Source: an uncultured Vicinamibacterales bacterium (GTDB taxonomy: Bacteria > Acidobacteriota > Vicinamibacteria > Vicinamibacterales > UBA8438). Taken from it: a stretch of 64,000 nucleotides of DNA. The stretch's first letter is position 1. Each line of letters opens with the position of its first letter. The position numbers were made by a program, and so were the translations under genes. The stretch lies in NCBI GenBank assembly GCA_958295905.1, contig OY282382.1, forward strand, positions 5,018,910 to 5,082,909. Direction: 5' to 3'. This document shows positions 24,987-29,946 of this stretch, piece by piece. Under the pieces are notes generated by a model. It searched no databases, was not told the origin of the DNA, and saw only the letters and a program-made list of their open reading frames with translations.

Positions 24987-25023
24987 CGTTCGAGGTTCAT
25001 GCGGTTCACGGTCGGATCGGGGC

Positions 25024-25114
25024 GGGCACGGCCCGTGCGCCCGCGGGCATGCCCGAAGCCGATCGACGTCGAGGTCGGCGCGACGGGCACGGCCCGTGCG
25101 CCCGCGGGCATGCC
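25024..25114. repeat. 30-bp direct repeat with hairpin upstream of pepF
   Basis: A unit starting GGGCACGGCCCGTGCGCCCG occurs at 25024-25053 and 25085-25114 (period 61 bp). Each contains a GCACG/CGTGC stem and is in the 5' region of pepF. Confidence 0.7.
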
Positions 25115-25214
25115 TTCCGAAGTCGACGCCCGCCGGCGGGCTGTGCGCCGGCGGGCTCGGACTCCGGTCGCCGGGGCCGCGGGGGGGCCGTTCGGCAAAC
25201 CGCCCCGAGGGCGG

Positions 25215-25529
25215 TCACGGGTCTGCCGTTGCGGCTCGCAGGAGTATCCAGACCACGGCGAAGGTGATCAGCGCCAAGAACGACAAGAGCAGCACACCGT
25301 CGAAGAAAAAGGCGAAGAGAGCGGTGCGGTCGGTAATGGGCAGCCGGTCCGGCTTGAGGACGTAGCCCACGAACAACCTTGCAGCCGCCGCGACGAAAAC
25401 GCCGCCAGAGAACCAGCTCAGGGCCACCGGCGGGGCTTGTTGCTGGGTATTGGCGCGGAGTTGCCAAGACAACAGTGAGAACACCAGGAATGAGAGGGTC
25501 GCAAGCGAATACGGCCCGCCTTCAGGCAA
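25215..25529 (-). CDS. small three-helix membrane protein, unknown
   Basis: 104 residues with about three hydrophobic segments ('LATLSFLVFSLLSWQL', 'WFSGGVFVAAAARLFVGYVL', 'LFAFFFDGVLLLSFLALITFAVVWILL'). The TTG start at 25529 is chosen because GGAGG lies 6 nt before it. The start overlaps the end of the upstream PLD-like gene by 8 bp, so the two are translationally coupled. No family is recognised. It is the only evident partner of the PLD-like protein. Confidence 0.65.
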   Translation of the reverse strand: MPEGGPYSLATLSFLVFSLLSWQLRANTQQQAPPVALSWFSGGVFVAAAARLFVGYVLKPDRLPITDRTALFAFFFDGVLLLSFLALITFAVVWILLRAATADP

Positions 25530-26076
25530 CCGCGGCCTCCATGTCGGTAAATCGGGCCTTCATCGCGCGGACGTGGTGTCCCAGGGCGGCATCGCGAATG
25601 GCCGCCGGGACCCGCGAGCAGTCGTAGAGTCGATACCGCCTCTCGGCGGCCCCGATCGGGTGCGACGACACATAGCCCTTCCGGCCGTCGTCGATGATCT
25701 TGAAGTGGATATCACGCCGGGGCTGCACCCCTCTCTTCAGGACAACTTGGGGGTGGCCATCCAGCCTGCGGGTGAAAACCGTGTCGTCGTTCGAGAAAAA
25801 CAGGCACGCTATTCGCAGGCGGGGATTGGCCTTCAGGCAATCGAGGGCCTGAGTGGCGACATCCTCCCGGTCGTAGATCGAATCGGTCATGCTGTTCCCG
25901 TCGTCGCAGATCAACATCGTTCGCTCCGCATCCTTCAGGAGCTCGACGAAAGTCTCAGCCGCGAAGCGGCTGTCGTTCATGCCGGCCTGCAGACCGAGCC
26001 TAAGGAGTCCGGCTGTTCTGTAGACGTAATACAGAAGCGGAATGACGGTTGCGGTGATCGCGAGCCAAACGGCCAT
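25522..26076 (-). CDS. membrane-anchored phospholipase D-like (HKD-type) protein, unknown role
   Basis: 184 residues. An N-terminal anchor ('MAVWLAITATVIPLLYYVYRTAGLL') is followed by a single PLD-like half-domain: 'AERTMLICDDGNSM', 'RLRIACLFFSNDD', then 'IHFKIIDDGRKGYVSSHPIG'. This resembles HxKx4D-G-x-GS, but the Asp sits at +5/+6 from the His where +7 is canonical, so activity is uncertain. One HKD half would need a dimer, as in Nuc-type nucleases. The ATG at 26076 has GGGAGG at good spacing; an ATG at 26082 is too close to it. Operonic with the membrane protein at 25215-25529. Confidence 0.65.
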   Translation of the reverse strand: MAVWLAITATVIPLLYYVYRTAGLLRLGLQAGMNDSRFAAETFVELLKDAERTMLICDDGNSMTDSIYDREDVATQALDCLKANPRLRIACLFFSNDDTVFTRRLDGHPQVVLKRGVQPRRDIHFKIIDDGRKGYVSSHPIGAAERRYRLYDCSRVPAAIRDAALGHHVRAMKARFTDMEAAVA

Positions 26077-26361
26077 GGTCATCCTCCCAGGTACGCCCGG
26101 ACACACAGAGCGGTGCGTCAGCCATGCGACCGCCCTCAGTGCCTCGTCTCGGGGTGGAGCTCAACCGCGCAAGGGGGACTGGGAGACACCCCCCCTTGAT
26201 CGTAGGTGGGAACGATGGACCACACAAGCCCCAGGGATTGACGCCAGCCGCCCTTCGCCGGACTTGCGGGCGGCGCAGGACCGCGTCAGACGAGGTGCGA
26301 ATCGTCGGTCAGGTTGGTTGAAACCGAGACACAACCCGCGCGGACCAGTACCGGCGATTGG

Positions 26362-29034
<2,673 letters not shown>

Positions 29035-29259
29035 GAGCTTCTTCTTCGGGATGGTCCAGTGGGTCTTCAGAAACGTTCAGCGGGGCGTCGAGACCATCGA
29101 CGCACGCCGAGCAACCTTCCTATTTTCGTCCACGGTCTCGATGCCGCGCAACCCGGCCGGCGGGCCGGTAGTGTGCTACAGGTTGACTCCTGCCGAAATC
29201 AGAATCGGGGCCGCCGTGGGGTATAGTCGGTTTCAGGCCATCCCGGCCCCTTGGGGGAC

Positions 29260-29946
29260 ATGCCGTCGGTGATCTACTGCGTGATCGGAGACAGGCTGGG
29301 ACCACTCGTCGAGAAGACGTTCTCGGAGGACAACCGGATCGCCGTCGGCGAGGGTGAGTGGCTGGTGAGCGCGGACTCACCGACCAGCAGGCGCGTCTGG
29401 GAGCGCCTCCTCAGCCACCACAGCGGCGCAGAGGGCACACCCCCGCCGCGCGGCATCGTGCTCTCCGTCTACGGCTACTATGGCGCCCACCAGACGACGA
29501 TCTGGGAGTGGCTCGCGGCGAAGCGCGGGATGATGACTTCCTCTTCTGAACCGCGCACGCACGGGACTCCGGTCGACGGCGCACCGAACACGGACGTGAC
29601 ACCGCCGCCCGGCCTGCAGGCGGGCCAGCATAGCTGGGTGCTGCAGACCGTCACGGATCTGCAGAAGACGGTGGGGAAGCTGACAGGAACCGTCGAGGGC
29701 CTGACTGGCACCGTCGCGGAACAGTCACGGAGAATCGACGCGCTGGGCGGGAAGATCGACGGCTGCCGCAACGACCTGACCAGGGTCCTCGCCAGCGTTC
29801 GGACGGCGTACCGCATTCTCGCCGTAGTCATCAGCGTCTTCGGCGCACTGATCGCGTTCGCGCTATACAGATTGCCGGCGATCGTCGAGGGGCTGCCGGC
29901 GATCATCGAGGCCCTCCGCGCCGGAGGACCGGGAGGCGGCTCATGA
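29260..29946 (+). CDS. unknown protein: small alpha/beta domain, coiled coil, C-terminal membrane helix
   Basis: 228 residues, no family recognised. Residues 1-85 look like a compact alpha/beta domain ('VIYCVIGDRLGPLVEKTFS', 'GEWLVSADSPTSRRVWERL', 'GIVLSVYGYYGAHQTTIWEWLAAKRG') whose strand order loosely recalls SinR/Cas2-like ferredoxin folds. This is a weak resemblance only. A Pro/Thr linker, a coiled coil with repeated 'LTGTV' units, and one membrane segment ('ILAVVISVFGALIAFALY') follow. A TATAGT hexamer at 29222-29227 gives a plausible promoter. The stop codon overlaps the end of a minus-strand ORF within TCATGA. Confidence 0.65.
   Translation: MPSVIYCVIGDRLGPLVEKTFSEDNRIAVGEGEWLVSADSPTSRRVWERLLSHHSGAEGTPPPRGIVLSVYGYYGAHQTTIWEWLAAKRGMMTSSSEPRTHGTPVDGAPNTDVTPPPGLQAGQHSWVLQTVTDLQKTVGKLTGTVEGLTGTVAEQSRRIDALGGKIDGCRNDLTRVLASVRTAYRILAVVISVFGALIAFALYRLPAIVEGLPAIIEALRAGGPGGGS

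Follow-up and report, generated by a model that had tools for sequence, protein, structure and literature searches.

The window analysed here is a 64,000-nucleotide stretch of the 6.3 Mb genome of an uncultured acidobacterium, assembled in three contigs. On its minus strand, two short genes lie between two housekeeping genes, in the order acn (aconitase), gene 1, gene 2, pepF. Gene 1 (26076-25522) runs from an ATG start to a TGA stop and encodes 184 amino acids, with a hydrophobic anchor at residues 1-19 followed by a predicted alpha/beta domain. Gene 2 (25529-25215) runs from a TTG start to a TGA stop and encodes 104 amino acids. The two genes overlap by 8 bp (25522-25529), and each is preceded by a GGAGG ribosome-binding site 6 nt 5' of its start codon, at 26087-26083 for gene 1 and at 25540-25536, within gene 1, for gene 2 (both minus strand). 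Hydropathy analysis finds a single hydrophobic segment in gene 1 and two clear ones in gene 2; a marginal third segment at the N terminus of gene 2 was seen by eye and lies below the threshold used. The initial annotation had described an overlapping unit with a TTG start behind GGAGG, a tethered first protein and a small membrane partner, and the coordinates, the overlap, the 6-nt spacing and the membrane segments all bear this description out.

The sole orthologous locus is in G497, a genome of the same genus (contig JAJEEA010000148.1). In the alignment of the two inserts, conservation extends from a promoter-like block, TTGTGT-17 nt-TACGAT (26199-26227, minus strand), to the stop of gene 2, with hardly any outside this span; thus, the conserved unit consists of one promoter-like block and two genes. 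The block was read by eye from the alignment of the upstream regions, where its G497 counterpart is TTGTTC-17-TACGAT, and a consensus scan with stricter limits found no promoter. The predicted RNA structure of the leader is unremarkable (z -0.19), the only occurrence of the leader motif in six genomes is G497's own copy, and Rfam and tRNA scans of the 64-kb window gave no matches.

The pair is an insertion between acn and pepF, since the same site is empty in relatives. pepF was sought in 28 genomes of the family and found in 23, and acn adjoins it in all 23 loci. The pair is present in two of these: the window genome (G000), where the spacer from the acn stop to the pepF start is 1375 bp (24987-26361), and G497, where it is 1283 bp. 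The spacer is 10-177 bp in 17 loci, including that of G496, which belongs to the same genus as the window genome and has 10 bp. Two loci (G206 and G495) were left unplaced by the script, their aligned acn and pepF parts being about 70 and 125 bp apart, and two from another genus (G510 and G512) have spacers of 927-930 bp that hold a different islet. The best explanation for this distribution is that the pair was recently gained by an ancestor of the two species, or was lost from G496. The composition of the pair (GC 0.62, GC3 0.77-0.79) also differs from that of its neighbours (GC 0.72-0.73, with GC3 of 0.93-0.98 in pepF and acn).

Two further features of the region were observed. Between gene 2 and pepF are two GC-rich direct repeats of 36 nt (25018-25053 and 25079-25114), which are 94% identical and 61 bp apart, and whose core is unique to that spot within the window. 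Upstream of acn is a lineage-specific ORF of 231 amino acids (29251-29946, plus strand) with, by eye, a stretch resembling a coiled coil and a C-terminal region that is hydrophobic. It has no family match above cut-off, and its relatives occur in six of 162 genomes of the order, counting its own and one marginal case, several of them partial or in two pieces.

The islet at the acn-pepF site in G510 (L030, 573-1500) and G512 (L031, 1936-2865) is also an overlapping gene pair, with a first gene of 183-189 amino acids, a second of 95-97 amino acids and a GC content of 0.62-0.63 against 0.69 in pepF. The first gene resembles Phd/YefM in the G512 copy only (E 0.0032, below cut-off), and the second resembles RelE/StbE in the G510 copy only (E 0.029, below cut-off). 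In their congeners G509 and G511 the spacers are 18 and 22 bp and the islet is absent. The presence of a different islet at the same site suggests that small two-gene modules repeatedly land in the acn-pepF spacer. This shared site is the best contextual clue to the nature of the pair, and only a hint. The other neighbours are uninformative, as the initial annotation had remarked: besides PepF and aconitase they are a lactate permease, a chalcone-isomerase-like protein, Lgt, AMMECR1 and Memo. It had proposed a search for such pairs near defence genes in particular; at this locus PADLOC recognises none of the nine flanking proteins of the window that were scanned and has no match for the pair itself.

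Because the window is 71% GC and contains many spurious ORFs, the coding status of the pair needed proof. Comparison with G497 provides it: both genes are real, coding and under purifying selection. The two copies of gene 1 are 85% identical, and the nucleotide differences at codon positions 1, 2 and 3 number 18, 12 and 42 (of 184 each) in gene 1 and 9, 4 and 32 (of 101-102 each) in gene 2. The dN/dS ratio is about 0.18 (0.073/0.406) for gene 1 and about 0.10 (0.057/0.544) for gene 2, the latter computed with a shifted base in G497 omitted. Among the other five frames of gene 1, dN exceeds dS in four; the only one with dS above dN is an antisense frame whose third position lies opposite the sense third position, and this frame is interrupted by stops, leaving 176 usable codons. 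The overlap and both ribosome-binding sites are conserved as well. G497 is the only other genome with the pair and carries both genes, so the two are conserved together, as the proposal of a two-component module had supposed. Its gene 2 has a one-base frameshift about halfway along, and because the downstream half still matches codon by codon, the frameshift reflects an assembly error or else a recent break.

In the collections searched, the pair is known from these two genomes only. Among 162 genomes of the order, gene 1 has three matches (its own, G497 and a chance match in G500), and among 396 genomes of the phylum it has two, its own and a chance match with an internal stop in G372. A two-row profile of gene 1 gave 13 matches in the 396 phylum genomes at E 0.05, which according to the table are its own and 12 short, weak ones, and a profile of the soluble domain matched two of 193 genomes of the class, with no relative beyond G497. 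Gene 2 has six matches in the 193 class genomes: its own, G497 and four weak ones, three of which lie within what we take to be cytochrome c oxidase subunit III-like genes, the fourth being in G088. A collection of 85,000 species was scanned with two short peptide patterns only, and the G497 contig alone matched; this is a weak negative, and distant relatives there are possible. Viral contigs yielded no relative, nor did plasmids or phages at E 0.01; for phages this also held at E 10. The plasmid search at E 10 returned 36 records. The best two matches fall on an IS6-type element, either on its opposite strand or in its reading, and were rejected as chance; the third of the three inspected has no annotation. 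On Rhizobium plasmids (L055 and L056), a long match to gene 1, with gaps and 28-29% identity, lies on the strand opposite an IS6-type transposase and is taken as chance.

Family libraries were equally silent. Pfam, PHROGs, PADLOC and NCBIfam contain no family for gene 1, one irrelevant sub-cutoff NCBIfam row aside, and no toxin, antitoxin or holin family that matches either protein. For gene 2, Pfam gives a single sub-cutoff match (DUF4059, E 0.0028, 18.5 of 25 bits), which is not relied upon. Searching the PDB by sequence gave three chance rows for gene 1 and none for its profile. No description of such a gene pair was found in a search of the non-subscription literature, and the main text of PMC7159879 contains no PLD or HKD terms. 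Thus no known family claims the pair, since phospholipase D (PLD) proteins fail to match it in two tested features and toxin-antitoxin systems resemble it in layout only: adjacent short genes, an 8-bp overlap and presence at two of 23 family loci.

The initial annotation had drawn attention to a single HKD-like site with a shifted Asp in the first protein. The site is there: residues 124-140 of gene 1 read HFKIIDDGRKGYVSSHP, and its core, H124-F-K126-I-I-D129-D130-G, has an HxK with Asp at +5 and +6 after the His rather than at +7. The PLD superfamily signature, as given in PMC5714352, is HxK(x)4D(x)6GSxN. In gene 1 the Asp is misplaced and S-S-H-P stands where GSxN is expected. If the hairpin of gene 1 were one residue shorter, Asp130 would be the canonical Asp, but this residue is Gly in G497, where Asp129 is kept. 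A loose HxKx2-4D pattern arises in 810 of 20,000 shuffles of gene 1 (about 4%); a stricter pattern, devised after the sequence had been seen, arises in none of 20,000. The assignment to a PLD-like class also fails by every other sequence measure applied. Gene 1 has no PLD family match in the four libraries. Against a profile built from 22 PLDc_2 halves of the same taxonomic order it scores -0.1 bits, a score reached by 261 of 2,000 shuffles (1,552 of which were scored) and by 67 of 1,052 background frames, and hhalign against PLDc_2 gives a probability of 0.4%, with several of 40 shuffles doing better. A PLD-like enzyme is not shown; from sequence, the idea goes back to a faint, non-standard motif only.

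Structure prediction for gene 1 gives models of low confidence. The AlphaFold models were made from two sequences, and their mean pLDDT is 48.6 for the whole of gene 1 and 49.1 for residues 29-184, with the motif stretch below 50. The predicted elements, of low confidence, run helix-strand-helix-strand-helix-strand-strand(HFKI)-strand(YVSS)-strand-helix, which is the element order of a PLD half; at such pLDDT values and with no significant match to a PLD structure, a PLD half fold is a possibility. The spacings are close to those of the family. A50, the Ala of the first strand, and H124 are 74 residues apart, compared with 67-76 in 19 of 22 PLDc_2 halves, where the script gave no sensible first spacing for the other three and its pattern found no GSxN in nine of the 22. 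H124 and S137 are 13 residues apart, against a canonical 14, and the tail is longer, at 52 residues against about 46 in PLDc_2 halves. Foldseek with the model of the soluble part (residues 29-184) places PLD1 at ranks 1-3 (E 0.022-0.042, TM 0.23-0.24), and PLDs make up 13 of the best 50 matches listed, none at E 0.001 or below. With the full-length model there is no PLD among the best 50 matches listed, and neither model gave any Foldseek match at E 0.001 or better. The best VIA rows are other folds (Z 4.9 and 5.8); NucT (Z 4.1) comes in at rank 18 and Zucchini (Z 3.8) at rank 47, both among ties, where the best row has Z 4.9. A library of viral structures gave no match at E 0.001, with poxvirus envelope lipases at ranks 2 and 23 amid noise. 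On this evidence, we give about an even chance that gene 1 is a true PLD-type half, and a chance well short of even that it is catalytic.

The reading we prefer, tentatively and at somewhat below even chance, is that the pair is an accessory two-gene islet in which a membrane-tethered PLD-type half and its membrane partner form a sensor/effector complex. The N-terminal helix would anchor the gene 1 protein in the inner membrane. The positively charged side of a membrane segment faces the cytosol (the positive-inside rule), and the arginines of gene 1 follow the hydrophobic segment, with none before it, so that the domain is predicted to be cytosolic. This domain would be a single, divergent half of the PLD type, pairing with a second copy of itself, and a phosphodiester ligand would be bound through H124 and K126. 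Because the signature is degraded, binding without cutting appears at least as likely as cutting. Translation coupled by an overlap usually indicates a fixed partner, and gene 2, on the same message, would be such a partner, through which, we infer, the complex affects the membrane. The whole would then act as a sensor with a membrane effector, in the manner of small two-gene cargo for stress, toxin-antitoxin or defence functions. In more cautious terms, the two proteins may form an accessory membrane module in which the tethered domain, probably on the cytosolic side, is a variant or pseudo-PLD half. The most specific version is improbable as a whole, namely an unrecognised kind of mobile module in which this tethered domain, as a variant or pseudo-PLD half, detects a phosphodiester ligand and acts through its dedicated small membrane protein, the module being cargo at a chromosomal site shared with toxin-antitoxin-like pairs.

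Among the alternatives, it is a realistic if doubtful possibility that gene 1 has another alpha/beta fold in which HFK occurs by chance, and that the two genes encode an uncharacterised membrane protein pair. The uniformly negative PLD sequence tests and the frequency of the loose motif in shuffles are what such a fold would give, and Rossmann-like and thioredoxin-like folds are found among the top structural rows, equally weak. However, few stretches of gene 1 are as well conserved between the two orthologues as the block around HFKIID.GRKGYVSSHPIGAAERRYRLYDCSRVPA, PLDs recur in the Foldseek rows of the soluble model, and the element order fits a PLD half. It is unlikely that the pair is a toxin-antitoxin-like selfish module in which the gene 2 product damages the membrane as a toxin and gene 1 encodes its tethered neutraliser or trigger. 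Such a module would be consistent with the overlapping short genes, their patchy presence, their low GC and the site they have in common with a toxin-antitoxin-like pair of similar sizes, and the state of G497, where gene 1 is intact and gene 2 frameshifted, fits it without being proof, but neither protein matches a toxin-antitoxin, holin or toxin family in the libraries, which argues against it. More improbable still is that gene 1 is an ordinary membrane nuclease like Nuc, NucT and Zucchini, active and with a single, slightly degenerate HKD motif, and that gene 2 is a localisation partner. The architecture is alike (an N-terminal membrane segment, one motif, fewer than 200 amino acids), NucT and Zucchini appear among the VIA rows, and NucT is described in PMC5714352 as membrane-associated with its catalytic His likewise at residue 124; against this, gene 1 departs from the HxK(x)4D(x)6GSxN signature, the orthologue has Gly in place of Asp130, and there is no profile similarity to PLDs. 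Finally, a reading of gene 1 as a spurious ORF antisense to a decayed IS6 transposase, which tblastn matches (E 0.02-0.1) to the strand opposite such a transposase on Rhizobium plasmids might suggest, is refuted by the third-position substitutions in the gene 1 frame, and the alignments are gapped, the longest having stop codons in the matched strand.

The locus offers a clean case of a tiny islet under selection that has no recognisable family and lies between housekeeping genes, at a site which is empty in a sister species. A PLD variant in gene 1 would add a tethered form that depends on a partner and has an altered motif; otherwise, the two genes encode a new pair of small membrane proteins. 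As an apparent recurrent landing site, the acn-pepF spacer also provides a route to further such modules.

Several known systems resemble the pair in part. The type II toxin-antitoxin islets of G510 and G512 share with it the two short overlapping genes, the similar sizes, the same GC and the same acn-pepF site, but no homology to the window pair was seen, and the family matches of the islets are themselves below cut-off. Zucchini/MitoPLD and Nuc have a canonical motif, unlike gene 1, and we know of no dedicated small membrane partner in an operon with them. As described in PMC10783504, Zucchini/MitoPLD (PLD6) and Nuc are PLDs with a single motif per chain, two chains together forming one site, and PLD6/Zucchini has a transmembrane segment, as gene 1 does. 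NucT of Helicobacter pylori is, according to PMC5714352, a membrane-associated, single-half protein with one HxK motif near residue 124, which is the likeness to gene 1; it is periplasmic and has the full HxK(x)4D(x)6GSxN, whereas gene 1 is predicted to be cytosolic and lacks the Asp position and the GSxN. Gene 1 also differs from NucT in having an overlapping partner gene, and the two have no sequence match. The FAM83/DUF1669 pseudo-PLDs, likened here by description, are vertebrate proteins, unlike gene 1, and according to PMC6008594 they provide a precedent for a PLD-like domain without PLD activity.
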